64,000 bases of DNA from Halpernia frigidisoli (GTDB lineage: Bacteria; Bacteroidota; Bacteroidia; Flavobacteriales; Weeksellaceae): the NCBI RefSeq assembly GCF_900113805.1, contig NZ_FOQT01000003.1, forward strand, positions 310,001 through 374,000. Reading direction: 5' to 3'. A model generated the notes under the pieces. The model worked only from the letters and a program-made list of their open reading frames with translations, did not search any database and was not told the origin of the DNA. Shown one piece after another: positions 22,436-53,740 of the stretch; the stretch's first letter is position 1, and the number at the start of each line of letters is the position of its first letter. The translations under genes and the position numbers were made by a program.

Positions 22436-22535
22436 AGCCCCGATTGCAGTGGAAATCTGTCATTGCGAGGAACGAAGCAATCTGTTCAAAAGATTGCTTC
22501 GTTCCTCGCAATGACGGATTGTAGCGAAAAGCGGG
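22436..22535 (+). repeat. Interspersed repeat copy D with nested perfect palindrome
   Basis: The outer ends (TAGCCCCGATTGCAGTGGAAATC and GGATTGTAGCGAAAAGCGGGA) match copies A-C. Inside is a perfect 25-bp inverted repeat, left arm 22459-22483 starting GTCATTGCGAGGAACGAAG and right arm 22491-22515, with a seven-base loop. It translates as the SLRGTKQS-type peptide seen in many bacterial misannotations. It lies in the divergent gap between the Gre-factor gene and mnmA. Confidence 0.8.
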
Positions 22536-22646: not shown

Positions 22647-23834
22647 ATGAAAATAGTAGTTGGTTTATCCGGCGGTGTAGACAGCAGTGTTGCCGCGTAT
22701 TTGTTGCAGCAGCAAGGACACGAAGTTATCGCGCTTTTTATGCGAAACTGGAATGATGCATCGGTCACTTTGGAAGATGAATGTCCGTGGATCGAGGACA
22801 GTAATGATGCGCTTTTGGTGGCGCAAAAACTGGGAATCCCGTTTCAGGTGATTGATATGAGCGAACTTTACAAAGAGCGCATCGTAGATTATATGTTTAA
22901 TGAATATAAGAACGGCCGCACGCCAAATCCGGATGTTTTGTGCAACCGCGAAGTTAAGTTTGACGTGTTTATGAAAACAGCCTTATCACTTGGCGCTGAG
23001 AAAGTTGCGACCGGACATTACGCACAAGTGAACTCTACTTTTGACGAAAATGGAACAGAAATTTTCCACCTTCTCGCGGGGAAAGATGACAATAAAGACC
23101 AAAGTTATTTTCTTTGTCAGCTGAATCAGGATCAACTCTCGAAATCGCTTTTCCCGATCGGGAATATTACGAAACCTGAAGTTCGGGAAATTGCTAAAAA
23201 ACTGGATCTGGTAACGGCTGAAAAGAAAGATTCCCAAGGTTTGTGTTTTATCGGAAAAGTGAGTTTGCCGACATTCTTGCAGCAGCAACTGAAACCAAAA
23301 GAAGGCGAAATTGTTGAAATTTTCAAAGATTTTGACCAATATCATCAGGAAAAAACCGAATTTTCTTCAAAACTGGAAGAACTGGAATTTCTTTCTGCTA
23401 AAACACATTACAAAAAAACAGACGGAAAAGTGATTGGCAAACACCAGGGCGCGCATTATTTTACGATCGGGCAAAGTAAAGGTCTGGGAATTGGCGGTCA
23501 CAAAGAATCCTGTTTTATGATTTCCCGTGATATGCAGGAAAATTTAATTTTCGTGGGTGAAGGACGGGATTTTCCCGGCTTGTTCCGGAAAGCCTTAAAA
23601 ATAGAAACGGCAGATATCCATTGGGTTCGCGAAGATCTGAAATTAAAAAACGGCAAAACTTTAGAGGTTTCTGCAAGGATCCGTTACCGACAACCTTTGG
23701 AAAAAGCCACGCTTTATCAGTTTGAAGAAGGCTTGTTTATCGAATTTGAAAACCCACAATCTGCGATTGCAGAAGGACAATTTGCTGCGTGGTATGTCGG
23801 GGAGGAATTGTTGGGAAGTGGGGTGATTTCTTAG
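22647..23834 (+). CDS. mnmA: tRNA-specific 2-thiouridylase MnmA
   Basis: 395 residues. The PP-loop is GLSGGVDSS (about 6-14). The catalytic cysteines are Cys99 ([13 protein letters not shown]) and Cys200 ([11 protein letters not shown]). It installs 2-thiouridine at the wobble position of tRNAs for Glu, Gln and Lys. The ATG at 22647 is chosen. The last 70 bases have a second, diverged copy at 25002-25070, beyond the Panacea module, so this gene's 3' end marks the left edge of an accessory island. The translated C-terminus ([17 protein letters not shown]) looks intact. Confidence 0.95.
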
Positions 23835-23902: not shown

Positions 23903-24409
23903 CTATCTATTTCCTGGATAAATTATATGATTTCTATCAAACCACACTAAATAAAATATTCCTTTATACAAAAAACCACAGGCTCTTGCTTTCTGGTGAT
24001 AATGTAAATCAAATTGATAAAGCGTTGGCAATTCTTCATCTTTAATCTCATCTGGTTTAAAAGATAAAACTTTCTTGAAATCTTTTCTGTTTATTGACAC
24101 ATTATCTGAATCAAAATCTATAGGATGAAATCTATAGTTTTTTTTAGTTCTTAATTCGTTATATGTAAATTGAGAGTTTGTTTTAAGAGCCGTTAAAAAA
24201 CCCAAATAATCTTCAACCTTAAGAGAGTTAGAGTTGTAACATAAGTTTGAAAATTTTATAGATAGATAATCAAAAGCAAAAACTGGTTTCATATCCCTTA
24301 TATCATAAAAGGACACGCCGTTTTCACCAATTTTATATTTGTCAATTTTAAATTTGTCTAATTGATCTTGCGGATTTGCAATTTGGAATTTCTTTCTATT
24401 CTTTGACAT
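23903..24409 (-). CDS. Unrecognised partner of Panacea protein, putative toxin
   Basis: 168 residues, basic N-terminus, no signal peptide or membrane segment. I do not recognise a named domain. The C-terminus, FDLHYHQKARACGFLYKGIFYLVWFDRNHIIYPG, looks like the most conserved part, with several His/Lys/Arg/Asp residues that could be catalytic. It starts five bases after the stop of the Panacea-domain gene on the same strand. Panacea (DUF4065) proteins typically act as antitoxins or chaperone-like adaptors beside highly variable toxins. From this context I infer a toxin; activity cannot be predicted from sequence. Confidence 0.7.
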   Translation of the reverse strand: MSKNRKKFQIANPQDQLDKFKIDKYKIGENGVSFYDIRDMKPVFAFDYLSIKFSNLCYNSNSLKVEDYLGFLTALKTNSQFTYNELRTKKNYRFHPIDFDSDNVSINRKDFKKVLSFKPDEIKDEELPTLYQFDLHYHQKARACGFLYKGIFYLVWFDRNHIIYPGNR

Positions 24410-24414
24410 TAATG

Positions 24415-24894
24415 TTAAAGTTCTGAATAGAATTTAAACATTGATTTTTTTGAAATGATATTTGTACATCTTTCATGTGGAGCACAGTTTCCTCTTGCTT
24501 CGATCCAAGGCTTTTCATTGTGCGAAAGAAGTTCTAAATCAAAGGAACTTAAAGAGCCGTAGTTATCGAGAACAGAATAAATAAAATCAAGTTGATTAGA
24601 ATCAATTTCATTTTTTTTTATAATATATTCAATTTCCTTATCTACAGTTTCTTCTTCTTCATTGATAATTGCTAAATCATTAAAACCAAAATCTTTAAGT
24701 TTTTGGTAAAGATCAGGTATCACAGGACCGTGAACCCAGGCTTGGAAATCTTCTTGCAAAATGGGTTTTTTAAAATTTACTAAATGCCACGCTTCAACAT
24801 AATATAACAGTTTTTGCAGTTTCTTATGTGAAACTGTATCGCCTTTTTGATTAACGTAATTAGTGATTATATGACCTAAATCCCAAGAATTCAT
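24415..24894 (-). CDS. Panacea domain (DUF4065, SocA-like) antitoxin
   Basis: 159 residues. The N-terminal half has the DUF4065 pattern: KGDTVSHKKLQKLLYYVEAWHL, then FQAWVHGPVIPDLYQKLKDFG. Family members include the SocA proteolytic adaptor and the GepA phage-related protein, and many serve as antitoxins in two-gene modules with unrelated toxins. It is upstream of the 168-residue partner gene with a five-base gap, giving antitoxin-first order. Both sit between mnmA and a second copy of the mnmA 3' end, which suggests horizontal arrival. Confidence 0.88.
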   Translation of the reverse strand: MNSWDLGHIITNYVNQKGDTVSHKKLQKLLYYVEAWHLVNFKKPILQEDFQAWVHGPVIPDLYQKLKDFGFNDLAIINEEEETVDKEIEYIIKKNEIDSNQLDFIYSVLDNYGSLSSFDLELLSHNEKPWIEARGNCAPHERCTNIISKKSMFKFYSEL

Positions 24895-25001: not shown

Positions 25002-25070
25002 ATTGCGGAAGGACAGTTTGCTGCATGATATTTTGGTGAAGAATTGCTGGGAAGTGGGGTGATTTCTTAA
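25002..25070 (+). pseudogene. Remnant of a second mnmA 3' end
   Basis: About 70 bases align without gaps to the last 70 bases of mnmA (23766-23835), with roughly one mismatch per six or seven bases, many at third codon positions. The final 22 bases are identical. Translation gives IAEGQFAA[17 protein letters not shown], so the Trp codon is now TGA. It is in the same orientation as mnmA. It is not expressed as a protein on its own; it marks a recombination boundary. It lies in the 286-base gap between the Panacea gene and the PIN gene, where nothing else was recognised. Confidence 0.85.
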
Positions 25071-25180: not shown

Positions 25181-26553
25181 ATGGAAAAATTAATTAAGAT
25201 TCACCGCGATAATAATCAACTGGATTTCAAAGCAATATGGAAAGAAGGTCTTTTCATTTTTGATTCTAATGTTTTATTAGATTTATATCGATTACCTAAT
25301 TCCGCTCAAAAAGATTTAATACGAATTCTAAAAAATGATGATTTCAATAAAAGAATTTGGATTGGCTTTCAGGTGATTTTGGAATTTTTAAATAATAGAT
25401 TCGTAGCAATAAGTGATCAAAAAAATAAATTTACTTCTGTCAGAAAAATTTTAGAAGATGCTTTAGAACAACATAAGGAAGTAATTTCAACCTTAAAACT
25501 TGAGTTAAATAAACTTAAACTTAAACAAGACATTCTTCTATTGATCCAGATAAATTCATAAATGACAAAAATATTGATAGTGGAGTAAAATATTTGAATG
25601 ACTTTATTGATAATCTGGAAAAATTAGAAAGTAAGCAATCTGATGTAAACGATCAAGACAAAATTAAAGAAATCGTCCTTGAAATATTTAAAGATAAAAT
25701 CGGAAAAGGTTTAGATAAAAACACGCTTTTGGAACTTTATAAAGAAGGAGAAAAAAGATATCATAACTTAATTCCACCAGGATTTAAGGATAGTAAAAAA
25801 ATTGGATCTCATCTTTATGAAGATAAGGAATATATACGAAAATTTGGCGATTTAATTTTATGGTTTGAGATTATTGATCGGGCTTCTAAAAAAGATTTCA
25901 AATATATTGTTCTTGTTACAGGCGATATTAAAGAAGATTGGTGGCTTGAAAAGAGAGGTAGAAAATTAGGGCCTAGATTAGAACTTTTAAATGAAATATA
26001 TACGAAGGTTCCTGAAATAGACACCTTTTATCTTTATGACACATCAACTTTCTTACAATATGCACAAGAAGAATTAGATGATAAAATAAAAGACTCATCT
26101 ATTGATGAAGCAAAAAAATTAATTGAATTTAGCAAAGAGAACAGAAAAGAATCAGTTCCTGATTTGTTAAATATTTACAATGTCTTAAAAAGAATAGGAA
26201 ATTCAATCGACGGATTAAAAATGGGAATAGGTAAAAGTGTCAAAAATCTACCATTGCTTAATATTGATGTGAGGAATTTTTATTTAGTATTGATAGAAGT
26301 TCTAACGAATGCTGTTGAACATAGTCCAAATGGCTTTGTAGGAATTCACGCCGATGAAAACGAAAATTTTATAATTTTGAAATTTAGAAATGTAAAACTA
26401 GATTCTCTACAAACTGACGATGACTCTACAATTAGAAGAGGTAGGGGATTAAGTTATATCAAATCTATTTTATTAAAAGAATCTATTGACTTTAGCATTT
26501 ATGACGAAGGAAAAAAATTCGAATTAGAAATGTTTATACCAAAAAATAAATAA
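25181..26553 (+). pseudogene. PIN_8-type nuclease with GHKL-like ATPase tail, frameshifted
   Basis: Two adjacent reading frames look like one gene of about 457 codons. The first (25181-25561) encodes a PIN-like N-half: FIFDSNVLLDLYRLP with the first acidic residue, then IWIGFQVILEFLNNR. The second is open from 25525 and ends at 26553. It starts HSSIDPDKFINDKN, then has the PIN_8 C-half (GDLILWFEIIDRASKK, ILVTG-like YIVLVTGDIKEDWW). Its last ~90 residues contain an N-box-like EVLTNAVEHS and a G-box-like GRGLSYIKSIL, as in GHKL ATPases. The change from frame 2 to frame 1 at about 25522-25540 is equivalent to one lost base. The alternatives are two separate proteins or a sequencing error. Partner gene and target are unknown. 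Confidence 0.7.
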
Positions 26554-26633: not shown

Positions 26634-26729
26634 TTACCAATCTTTAAATTCCTTCACGCGATCACGGCTAACGGTAATTTCCAGTTCGGGTTGAAATTTC
26701 AGATCAACTTTGTAATACGGCGATGAGTG
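26634..26729 (-). pseudogene. Remnant of a second lytTR regulator 3' end
   Basis: On the minus strand this encodes HSSPYYKVDLKFQPELEI, then TVSRDRVKEFKDW and a stop. It matches the C-terminal end of the response regulator at 26797-27540 (TSPYYKVDLEFQPELEI and onward), with an early stop replacing the last residues LVK. Nucleotide identity is high over about 80 bases and is lost upstream of codon HSS. It has the same orientation as the intact gene. It forms the right edge of the island that starts at the mnmA 3' end. It lies in the 243-base gap before the intact gene. Confidence 0.85.
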
Positions 26730-26796: not shown

Positions 26797-27540
26797 TTAT
26801 TTCACCAACCAATCCTTAAATTCCTTCACGCGATCGCGGCTTACGGTAATTTCCAGTTCGGGTTGAAACTCGAGATCGACTTTGTAATAGGGCGAAGTAT
26901 GGATGTTTTTAATGAAATTTAAATTAATAATGACCTGTCGGTTTACGCGGAAAAATTGTTTAGAATCTAAACTTTGTTCCAGTTCTTCTAAAGTGAAATC
27001 CGTGGGATAAACGCGGTCTTTGGTTTGTAAATAGGCAATTTTATTTTCGCTGTAAAAACACGACACCTCATCGGTAGAAATGATCTTTAAATTATAACCG
27101 ATCTTCACTAAAATCCGGGATAATTTTGACTCTTCTTTCTTAATTAAATTTTTGAAATTTAATTCGTTAGAAGGCAGTTCACTTGGTAAGAACGATTTAA
27201 ATTTATCAACGGCTTTTTCGAGATCTTCCTGCAAAATGGGTTTTAAAAGATAATCGATAGAATTCAGTTTAAAAGCCTTCAACGTATATTGATCATAAGC
27301 CGTGGTGAAGATCATAAAACTTTGCACGGGATATTTTTCAAAAATATCGAAAGACATTCCGTCACCAAGCATAATATCAGAAAATATGAGTTGTGGCGAT
27401 TCATTATTTTGAAACCAATCTAAACTTTCTTCTACAGAAGACAAGACGGCAACTATTTCTAAATCAGGGATTAAACCTAACATTCTTTCTAGTTTTCTGG
27501 CGGCTGGTTTTTCATCTTCGATGATAACGGTTTTGATCAT
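26797..27540 (-). CDS. LytTR-family response regulator
   Basis: 247 residues from the ATG at 27540 (MIKTVIIEDEKPAARK). The receiver domain has an acidic pocket near Glu8/Asp9 and phosphoacceptor Asp55 (LIFSDIMLGD). The C-terminal LytTR DNA-binding domain covers about 145-247 (ILVKIGYNLKIISTDEVSCFYSE, FFRVNRQVIINLNFIKNI). It is the last gene of the 2TM/LytS/methyltransferase cluster and is the likely partner of the kinase at 28845-30164. A GTG further upstream is open but less likely. A diverged copy of its 3' end lies just downstream, at 26634-26729. Confidence 0.93.
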   Translation of the reverse strand: MIKTVIIEDEKPAARKLERMLGLIPDLEIVAVLSSVEESLDWFQNNESPQLIFSDIMLGDGMSFDIFEKYPVQSFMIFTTAYDQYTLKAFKLNSIDYLLKPILQEDLEKAVDKFKSFLPSELPSNELNFKNLIKKEESKLSRILVKIGYNLKIISTDEVSCFYSENKIAYLQTKDRVYPTDFTLEELEQSLDSKQFFRVNRQVIINLNFIKNIHTSPYYKVDLEFQPELEITVSRDRVKEFKDWLVK

Positions 27541-27553
27541 TTTGCTTTTTTTT

Positions 27554-27670
27554 ACCACAAAGTCACAAAGATTAATTCTAAAATCACTGACACGAAGGAC
27601 ACAATGAATTTAAAATAATTACTTGATAAAATTTTTTTTAAAATTACGTAATTCTTTGTGACTTTGTGGT
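27554..27670. repeat. Long-spaced inverted repeat (ACCACAAAGTCACAAAG)
   Basis: A perfect 17-bp arm pair: ACCACAAAGTCACAAAG at 27554-27570 and its complement at 27654-27670, separated by 83 bases. It lies between the methyltransferase and lytTR genes. Words of this kind recur between genes in many Bacteroidota; the function is unknown. Confidence 0.65.
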
Positions 27671-51332: not shown

Positions 51333-51740
51333 ATGATAAATTACTTTTTTGAAAATACCGATCCAATAGAAATTTCAGAAAAAATTTCGCCTTGGCTAAA
51401 TGATTTGATCACTTCCGAGAATAAAAAATTAGGTGAAATTACTTTCATTTTTGCTGACGATGAATATGTTTTAAAAGTAAACCAAGACTATTTAAAACAT
51501 GATTTCTACACTGATGTTATCACATTTGACTATGTTAAGGGAAAAATCATTAGCGGTGATATTTTCGTATCTTTGCATCGCATTTCAGATAACGCCAAAA
51601 TGCTGGATAAAGACTTTGAAAAAGAATTTTTAAGGGTTTTAGCACATGGCATTCTTCACCTCTGTGGTTATAAAGACAAATCCGAAGAAGAAATTTCTTT
51701 AATGCGTGAGAAAGAAGATCATTATATAAATCTTTTTTAG
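51333..51740 (+). CDS. ybeY: rRNA maturation factor YbeY
   Basis: 135 residues from the ATG at 51333 (MINYFFENTD); an upstream in-frame ATG at 51285 lies inside the patatin gene and is rejected. The metal site motif is HGILHLCGYKD, in which the third His of the usual HGxLHLxGYxH is replaced by Asp, as in many Bacteroidota. It takes part in 16S rRNA 3'-end maturation and ribosome quality control. It begins four bases after the patatin stop. Confidence 0.93.
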   Translation: MINYFFENTDPIEISEKISPWLNDLITSENKKLGEITFIFADDEYVLKVNQDYLKHDFYTDVITFDYVKGKIISGDIFVSLHRISDNAKMLDKDFEKEFLRVLAHGILHLCGYKDKSEEEISLMREKEDHYINLF

Positions 51741-51835
51741 AAGCTATTTCCCGCTTTCCGCTGCAATCTATTCTTTTTTCAAGAAAAAGAAAAGGATTTC
51801 CACTTCAATCGGGGCTAGTTTCAATCTGGTCTTCT
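51741..51835 (-). repeat. Flavobacterial interspersed repeat, copy C
   Basis: On the minus strand it reads TAGCCCCGATTGAAGTGGAAATCC, a poly-pyrimidine stem, then AGATTGCAGCGGAAAGCGGGAA. The ends agree closely with copy D at 22436-22535 and with copies A and B. It lies directly after ybeY and before the parS site. Confidence 0.65.
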
Positions 51836-51852
51836 TAGAAAATTTTTATAAA

Positions 51853-51868
51853 TGTTTCACGTGAAACA
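51853..51868. promoter_or_regulatory. parS site 1 (ParB-binding centromere)
   Basis: TGTTTCACGTGAAACA is a perfect 16-bp palindrome and an exact match to the conserved parS consensus bound by ParB/Spo0J. It lies ten bases before the mnmG ATG. parS sites cluster near the chromosome origin and nucleate segregation complexes. Confidence 0.92.
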
Positions 51869-51877
51869 ATTAAGATT

Positions 51878-53740
51878 ATGATAAACGAAATATACGACGT
51901 TATCGTTGTTGGTGGCGGTCACGCAGGTTGCGAAGCTGCTGCTGCTGCTGCAAATTTAGGTTCTAAAACGCTTTTAGTAACCATGAATATGCAAACCATT
52001 GGGCAAATGAGTTGCAACCCTGCGATGGGCGGAATTGCAAAAGGACAAATTGTTAGAGAAATCGATGCAATGGGCGGTTATTCCGGAATTATTTCCGATA
52101 AATCTGCCATACAATTTAAGATGCTCAATCTTTCAAAAGGTCCTGCGATGTGGTCGCCGAGAACACAAAATGACAGAATGTTATTCGCAGAAGAATGGCG
52201 AATTGCCTTAGAACAAACACCAAATCTTGACTTTTTTCAGGATATGGTAAAAGAATTTATCATCGAAAACAACAAAGTTTGCGGCGTAAAAACATCTTTA
52301 GGACTTTCAATTAAAGCAAAATCGGTTGTTTTAACAAACGGAACTTTTCTTAACGGATTAATTCACGTTGGTGAAAAACAATTAGGTGGCGGAAGAATGG
52401 GCGAACCAAAATCTTTCGGAATTACCGAGCAGTTGGTAAGTCTAGGTTTCGAAGCTGGAAGAATGAAAACAGGAACTCCCGCCAGAATTGATGGAAGAAC
52501 ATTGGATTATTCCAAAATGGAAGAACAAAAAGGGGATGAAAATCCTCAAAAATTTAGTTATTCCGACACACCAAAAATTACAAGACAATTAAGTTGTCAT
52601 ATTGCTTACACCAACGAAAAAGTCCACGATATTTTAAGAACTGGCTTTGAAAAATCACCGATGTTTAATGGCACGATTCAAAGTATTGGACCAAGATATT
52701 GCCCAAGTATTGAAGATAAAATAAACCGATTTGCTGATAGAAACAGACATCAACTTTTCGCTGAACCAGAAGGTTGGCGTACTGTTGAAGTTTATTTAAA
52801 TGGCTTTAGTTCTTCTTTACCTGAAGAAGTTCAAATACAAGCAATGCAGGCAATTCCTGGTTTCGAAAATGCAAAAGTTTTTCGCCCAGGTTACGCTATC
52901 GAATATGACTACTTCCCTCCTACTCAATTAAACCACACTTTAGAAACAAAATTAATCTCAAATCTATATTTTGCCGGACAAATTAATGGTACAACTGGTT
53001 ACGAAGAAGCCGCGGGACAAGGTTTAATGGCCGGAATTAATGCTCATTTAAAAATTAATGAGAAACCAGAATTTATTTTAAATAGAGACGAAGCTTACAT
53101 TGGTGTTTTAATCGATGATTTAATAACAAAAGGAACTGATGAACCTTATAGAATGTTTACATCAAGAGCAGAATACCGTTTGCTTTTAAGACAAGATAAC
53201 GCAGATATTAGATTAACGGAAAAGTCATATAAAATTGGTTTAGCAAAAGCAGACAGATTAAAAAATGTTACAGAAAAGATTGATAAAAGCAATGAACTAG
53301 AAGAGTATTTGCGTCAAACTTCTTTAAAACCAACTGTAATAAATCCTTTATTAGAAAGTATCGAATCTTCTCCAGTTGATCAAGCGTATCGCGCTTCTCA
53401 AATTTTGACACGTCCAAATATTACCCTAAAAACTTTAGAATCAATAACTATTTTAAAGGAAAACTTAGATAAATATTCTGAAGAAGTTCGTGAACAAGCC
53501 GAGATTAATATTAAATATAAAGGCTACATTGAGAAAGAAAAAGTAAATGTAGATAAACTAAATCGACTCGAAAATATAAAAATTGCTGAAACTTTCGAGT
53601 ATTTAAATATACCTTCCCTTTCTTCCGAAGCAAGACAAAAATTAACAAAGGTTCAACCAAAAACATTAGCGCAAGCAGGAAGAATAAGTGGTGTTTCACC
53701 TTCTGATATTAATGTTTTGATGATTTATATGGCAAAATAA
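51878..53740 (+). CDS. mnmG: tRNA uridine 5-carboxymethylaminomethyl modification enzyme MnmG
   Basis: 620 residues, normal length. The FAD site is VIVVGGGHAGCEAAAAAANLG. The GidA signatures are GQMSCNPAMGGIAKGQIVREIDAMGG and YCPSIEDKINRFADR, and the C-terminal helical domain ends ISGVSPSDINVLMIYMAK. With MnmE it makes the cmnm5 group on wobble U34 of several tRNAs; the thiolation partner MnmA is encoded at 22647. It is flanked on both sides by parS sequences, as mnmG often lies near the origin. Confidence 0.96.
   Translation: MINEIYDVIVVGGGHAGCEAAAAAANLGSKTLLVTMNMQTIGQMSCNPAMGGIAKGQIVREIDAMGGYSGIISDKSAIQFKMLNLSKGPAMWSPRTQNDRMLFAEEWRIALEQTPNLDFFQDMVKEFIIENNKVCGVKTSLGLSIKAKSVVLTNGTFLNGLIHVGEKQLGGGRMGEPKSFGITEQLVSLGFEAGRMKTGTPARIDGRTLDYSKMEEQKGDENPQKFSYSDTPKITRQLSCHIAYTNEKVHDILRTGFEKSPMFNGTIQSIGPRYCPSIEDKINRFADRNRHQLFAEPEGWRTVEVYLNGFSSSLPEEVQIQAMQAIPGFENAKVFRPGYAIEYDYFPPTQLNHTLETKLISNLYFAGQINGTTGYEEAAGQGLMAGINAHLKINEKPEFILNRDEAYIGVLIDDLITKGTDEPYRMFTSRAEYRLLLRQDNADIRLTEKSYKIGLAKADRLKNVTEKIDKSNELEEYLRQTSLKPTVINPLLESIESSPVDQAYRASQILTRPNITLKTLESITILKENLDKYSEEVREQAEINIKYKGYIEKEKVNVDKLNRLENIKIAETFEYLNIPSLSSEARQKLTKVQPKTLAQAGRISGVSPSDINVLMIYMAK

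Follow-up and report, generated by a model that had tools for sequence, protein, structure and literature searches.

For hotspots that are free of integrases, double homologous recombination at the flanking core genes has been proposed (Oliveira et al. 2017, PMC5635113). In the T6SS arrays of Vibrio cholerae, effectors are displaced, and a mechanism resembling homology-facilitated illegitimate recombination was suggested for this (Kirchberger et al. 2017, PMC5361080); the displacement was judged to be rarer than replacement by homologous recombination. Recombination with circular intermediates has been put forward for the displacement of rhs C-termini (Jackson et al. 2009, PMC2935791), and homology-facilitated illegitimate recombination itself is described for three naturally competent species and for conjugation of E. 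coli (PMC3240628). These statements follow the accessible portions of the four papers. A literature search, with subscription journals largely uncovered, returned no paper combining mnmA, hotspot, horizontal gene transfer and flanking. Among the matches listed, mnmA was absent for hotspots or defense systems in Flavobacteri and Halpernia was absent for defence and recombination; for defence hotspots with partial duplication of a flanking gene none of the matches listed was, by title, on the subject.

The locus described here belongs to Halpernia frigidisoli (family Weeksellaceae) and lies in a stretch of 64,000 nucleotides, called the window below. In the window mnmA and a lytTR gene are convergent with 2962 bp between them, and this gap holds, in order from mnmA, the Panacea pair, a second mnmA end (mnmA'), a PIN_8/GHKL gene and a second lytTR end (lytTR'), followed by lytTR itself:

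22647-23834, plus strand: mnmA (tRNA 2-thiouridylase), intact, left hotspot flank (ORF list; Pfam PF03054, PF20258, PF20259)
23903-24409, minus strand: 168-aa protein, partner of the Panacea gene (without Pfam match; NCBIfam MAG6450 sub-threshold only)
24415-24894, minus strand: SocA_Panacea antitoxin-like protein, 159 aa (PF13274, E = 1.4e-25; NCBIfam SocA_antitoxin below the cut-off)
25002-25070, plus strand: mnmA' scar, corresponding to the terminal 69 bases of mnmA but diverged, with an in-frame TGA (alignment)
25181-26553, plus strand: PIN_8 and GHKL-type gene, frame broken (ORF list, Pfam)
26636-26723, minus strand: lytTR' scar, diverged lytTR 3' end without its last codons (alignment)
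26797-27558, minus strand: lytTR response regulator, intact, right hotspot flank (ORF list; PF04397, PF00072)

The repetition of the mnmA 3' end at 25002-25070 had been pointed out in an earlier note made from the sequence, and it is borne out by a gap-free alignment of 23766-23834 with 25002-25070, in which 59/69 bases are identical. Aligned locally against the gap, the mnmA tail scores 91, and none of 200 dinucleotide shuffles scores above 29. About 11 differences, mostly at third codon positions, had been claimed; the bias holds (8 third, 2 first), but the count is 10. Likewise, the identical run of 22 bases exists, but it is not final, as it stops one base short of the end, where TAG is replaced by TAA. 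The Trp codon that has become TGA in mnmA', and the stretch of about 1.2 kb with the Panacea module between the copies (1167 bp from the end of mnmA to mnmA', with the hypothetical/SocA_Panacea pair inside), were both read correctly. The homology runs beyond the stop to 25088, with 84% identity over 87 nt. When the last 100 bases of mnmA were searched against the whole genome, matches at E <= 0.001 were found at these two places only, and thus the match is not common to unrelated loci of this genome. Upstream of mnmA, at window 22454-22520, two 33-nt arms with 94% complementarity form an inverted repeat around a single base, and this may be a mobile palindromic repeat.

The earlier reading was incomplete, since a scar of lytTR, the hotspot as such and recurrences in three other species had been overlooked. 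The lytTR' scar (26636-26723) matches the 3' end of lytTR at 80/88 bases (91% over 88 nt) with a score of 136 against a shuffle maximum of 27, and its differences fall at 7 third positions and 1 first position. Its frame ends with TAA after KDW, where the homology stops, while intact lytTR ends in KDWLVK (by eye). The 73-bp spacer between lytTR' and lytTR bears no likeness, by eye, to the spacers of empty sites. In GC content both scars are gene-like (0.42 and 0.41), in contrast to 0.27-0.28 in the surrounding cargo.

The gene enclosed by the two scars is split over two frames, 25181-25561 and 25594-26553, which match successive parts of PIN_8. An unbroken homologue is the CDS at 51476-52894 on plasmid NZ_CP126340.1. 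It is the only gene of the plasmid collection that the window PIN gene matches as DNA, at 68% over about 906 nt. This PIN-like plasmid gene (1419 bp) adjoins IS26, and the plasmid is a conjugative one of Atlantibacter hermannii (Enterobacterales); because the homologue sits on a plasmid of such a host, the window PIN gene seems to cross phyla. In the vector search neither a phage DNA match nor a viral-contig relative of the C-terminal part of the PIN protein was found. Within the family a PIN match is present in 19/320 genomes, the best outside the own genome reaching 49% over part of the protein (G290 contig C103, with mnmA on C78). The earlier note had proposed to look in relatives for mnmA ending directly at this PIN gene or at lytTR. 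The former arrangement was not found, the neighbours having been checked in some of the 19 PIN-matching genomes, the own one and G290 among them, and the latter is common, as given below.

The two scars enclose the PIN gene with the orientation and order that the native gene ends have, and for the window only it may be supposed that the PIN cassette and both tails were inserted as one piece through two non-homologous joins, in which case one insertion would explain both. This possibility, which overlaps the explanation preferred below, is regarded as unlikely, as two illegitimate joins would be needed and the other three scarred loci have one scar each (on the lytTR contig of Kaistella palustris, a lytTR scar was sought by tblastn only).

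To describe the site across the family, mnmA loci were gathered from family genomes and from named species, giving 137 stretches, 136 of them with full mnmA and 105 of these 136 distinct when judged on the last 600 bases of mnmA. In 95/105 distinct loci lytTR follows mnmA within the retrieved stretch. Of the 95 gaps, 26 are empty (1-104 bp) and 69 are filled with 0.2-9.1 kb of varied genes, 13 of them measuring 201-868 bp and 56, the window included, more than 1 kb. In the 68 loci whose gap is 300 bp or more, 201 ORFs of at least 90 aa are present, which form 62 cargo clusters, 38 of them seen once. The mnmA-lytTR gap is an integrase-free cargo hotspot, with the same core genes and very different contents in relatives. 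The most compact form of the site is a spacing of a single base between the mnmA and lytTR stop codons, present in five distinct loci of the Kaistella group (L106, L107, L108, L115, L123).

Defence-like genes stand nearest mnmA in six loci of the genus Kaistella (L111, L202, L201, L207, L038, L110). They include a SMEK/ABC-3C protein with a DUF2326 partner, a DRT-type reverse transcriptase (PADLOC Drt6, E = 4.6e-162), SLATT_5, DzbA, NsnA/PD-T4-2 with a HEPN protein, and GmrSD. In one of these loci (L202 7592-10409, Kaistella-genus G307) a DRT4/6-type reverse transcriptase stands next to mnmA, accompanied by a 308-aa protein that lacks annotation. PADLOC was applied to ten proteins only, among which the PIN part from the window and the 674-aa protein of Halpernia humi were without a match. 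In other loci, cargo with plainly non-defence domains occurs, and many cluster representatives are without a Pfam match.

It is a textbook outcome of site-specific integration at a gene 3' end that an intact gene is left together with a displaced tail behind the cargo, the element bringing the replacement tail, and the displaced tails seen here agree with it. Nevertheless, such integration is very improbable for this locus. An integrase is absent from the window gap (ORF list, Pfam), and no member of a tyrosine or serine site-specific recombinase family was found by Pfam in 57/58 cluster representatives outside the window, the 58th being the G309 scar itself. The scan covered ORFs of at least 90 aa in gaps of at least 300 bp, 10 loci without lytTR in reach being outside it except for two H. 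humi cargo proteins that were included; two cluster representatives are IS-type transposase/rve proteins. Moreover, the start points and lengths of the scars differ, the copies are diverged throughout with no identical core, and both flanking genes are hit.

Profiles of the mnmA tail and the lytTR tail were run over the 136 loci, some of them redundant and the K. palustris lytTR contig lying outside the set. Upstream of mnmA the search took in 870,853 bases; in lytTR-bearing loci it also took in 248,826 gap bases and 887,329 bases on the far side of lytTR. Extra tail copies were found only in the window gap, in the gap of Kaistella-genus G309 and in the locus of H. humi, which is counted twice in the set (L033, L102). 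The search gave no remnant in the 26 empty sites; by the earlier note, a remnant in places without cargo would have spoken against its reading. In H. humi a lytTR 3' scar of about 180 bp adjoins different cargo, and in G309 a longer mnmA 3' scar (residues 289-395) lies between two cargo blocks. In K. palustris (G312) the contig that runs on to lytTR opens with an mnmA 3' scar of at least 228 coding bases; the mnmA contig ends 133 bases past the stop, and it likely adjoins the scar-bearing one. A truncated 3' end of an anchoring gene behind cargo is thus seen in the window, in H. humi, in G309 and, given the likely contig adjacency, in K. palustris. The mnmA scars start at about nt 831, 940 and 1120, and the pieces of mnmA or close lytTR detected by tblastn come from the 3' part only.

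When the mnmA C-terminus was used as query against 320 family genomes, the lytTR tail being outside the scope, 317/320 matched and 48 gave two or more matches, with a true second mnmA tail in 3/320 (G000, G309, G312). The window scar reached only E = 2.6e-5 in this search, so shorter or older scars would escape it. The second matches in 45 of the 48 genomes, and the third in G312, were rejected, being in a different frame of about 180-220 aa with 26-45% identity. Other candidates were set aside as well: the mnmA-tail scores of L057, L064 and L070 were only 2-3 points over the maximum of 30 simple shuffles (first 40 loci) and found no support in the profile search, lytTR matches of full-length appearance (26-28%) were regarded as paralogues, and short second DNA matches of 21-31 nt in G080, G142 and G235 were ascribed to chance.

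In H. humi, intact lytTR is about 60 kb away from the lytTR scar (L033 5555-5809, L097 8430-10983). A TolC-like and a MutS-like gene bound this block, and they lie next to each other in the window genome (C2:24816-28011); from this adjacency it follows that a rearrangement breakpoint fell within the hotspot. A DprA-family gene is present in all four scarred genomes and permits transformation, but it says little, since 11/14 control genomes, E. coli included, also carry one.

A simpler origin of the scars would be local duplication, by slippage or unequal crossing over, with cargo landing between the copies and the copies then drifting as pseudogene pieces. Some of the similarities are as it predicts: the lytTR scars group by species (informative patterns 3:1:0, which leave a shared ancestral lytTR scar in both Halpernia species unsupported), K. 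palustris mnmA' is nearest its own mnmA (213/228), and window lytTR' is nearest its own lytTR (80/94, the next 76/94). The pattern of differences speaks against it. The share at third codon positions is 8/10 in window mnmA', 7/8 in window lytTR', 13/19 in G309 and 8/13 in K. palustris; pooled, it is 36/50. A copy that arose locally and drifted without constraint should show about one-half, equal neutral rates being assumed in both lines, and the pooled share departs from this at P = 0.0013. Singly, P is 0.055, 0.035, 0.084 and 0.29, respectively, and the excess is non-significant in three of the four copies. Only gap-free stretches were used, with the last 264 bases of G309 counted, its decayed first part left out and the gapped H. 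humi scar excluded. Because the differences cluster at third positions, the copies seem to be alleles that diverged mostly while they were working genes. Further, the match of window mnmA' to its own mnmA (59/69) is not better than its matches to mnmA of other genera (58-60/69 for the best twelve), and both flanks of the window are affected at once. Local duplication followed by decay is accordingly held to be quite unlikely, and the conclusion of the earlier note, that a gene end was duplicated through insertion or through recombination with a diverged allele, is supported by differences that are mainly synonymous.

When mnmA' DNA was searched against the 320 genomes, of which 181 matched, a clear donor was absent. 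The best matches were its own mnmA (84% over 87 nt), a genome of the genus Cloacibacterium (87% over 77 nt), H. humi (84% over 85 nt) and Kaistella G309 (87% over 71 nt). From window mnmA, mnmA' differs at 10/69 positions and H. humi mnmA at 3/69; from window lytTR, lytTR' differs at 8/88 and H. humi lytTR at 18/88. Judged by these sequences, the two window scars disagree on the distance of the donor. The intact mnmA tail of the window is of the Halpernia type (66/69 with H. humi), and this points to the scar as the imported one. In G309, between scar and lytTR, there is a 186-aa gene whose cluster is common to five other Kaistella-genus loci (representative Diphthami_syn_2); towards mnmA there is a 1094-aa repeat protein with relatives at 39 and 46% identity in two Epilithonimonas-genus loci, in each of which the relative is the sole cargo ORF of at least 90 aa. 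Such a distribution suggests that the newer cargo is the one next to mnmA and that the native tail was displaced. An imported scar and a displaced native tail may both occur.

There is no sign of frequent exchange of the gene tails themselves, since synonymous identity at the 3' ends is not raised against the rest of the genes (106 mnmA and 96 lytTR sequences). Homogenised tails had been considered because of a rise in identity between genera at the mnmA 3' end. This rise is gone when only synonymous codons are compared, and so it is due to protein constraint and not to exchange.

The explanation that we think probable is rare flank-anchored recombination, by which cargo was set beside older cargo while a gene tail was displaced or imported. 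It is favoured because two scars are present in one gap, both of gap-facing gene ends, and because scars recur beside different cargo in other species; the rarity of scars (mnmA tails in 3/320) counts against it, as do the conflicting donor distances of the two window scars, the failure to find a donor allele in the genomes searched and the synonymous identity of the 3' ends, which is not raised. Incoming DNA from a related bacterium would pair with the end of mnmA or lytTR, and usually two homologous crossovers would swap the cargo cleanly and leave no trace. In rare cases homology would resolve one side only and the other side would be joined without homology; alternatively, a circle carrying a gene tail and cargo would integrate through a single crossover. 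New cargo would then come to lie beside the old, with a truncated, allele-diverged 3' end of the flank gene at the seam, and in the window the PIN/GHKL gene would have a seam of this kind at either side. The recombination route, the order of events and which tail, the intact one or the scar, is foreign are what we infer. The scars most likely record foreign genes that were stacked successively without a dedicated integration enzyme.

Tail scars of this sort are physical evidence of single incomplete events, they are searchable by profile in any hotspot bounded by core genes, and they would allow gains to be ordered and their rate to be compared with that of clean replacement. A bolder and rather doubtful generalization is that housekeeping gene 3' ends are addresses for a free pool of defence cassettes, which carry a short tail of the flank gene, are taken up through a single crossover anchored in that flank and become stacked; scars would then record the order of cargo gain in integrase-free hotspots generally.

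The closest described systems share some of these features. The integrase-free hotspots of Oliveira et al. (PMC5635113) likewise have variable cargo between conserved core genes and no recognisable mobile element, but tail scars of flank genes are unmentioned in the accessible part of that paper, where recombination was inferred from statistics of the flanking genes instead of from such scars. In the rhs arrays (PMC2935791) dissociated gene tips are left by recombination, as here, although those tips are, in the accessible text, variable C-termini of a diversifying gene and not the ends of conserved flanking genes. In the V. cholerae T6SS arrays (PMC5361080) a new module also lies beside the old one with the 3' end of the old gene shifted back, and the route through one-sided homology and an illegitimate join is, in the part of that paper accessible, a proposal made for those arrays; the displaced tail there belongs to a cargo (effector) gene, whereas here it belongs to the housekeeping genes that flank the cargo.
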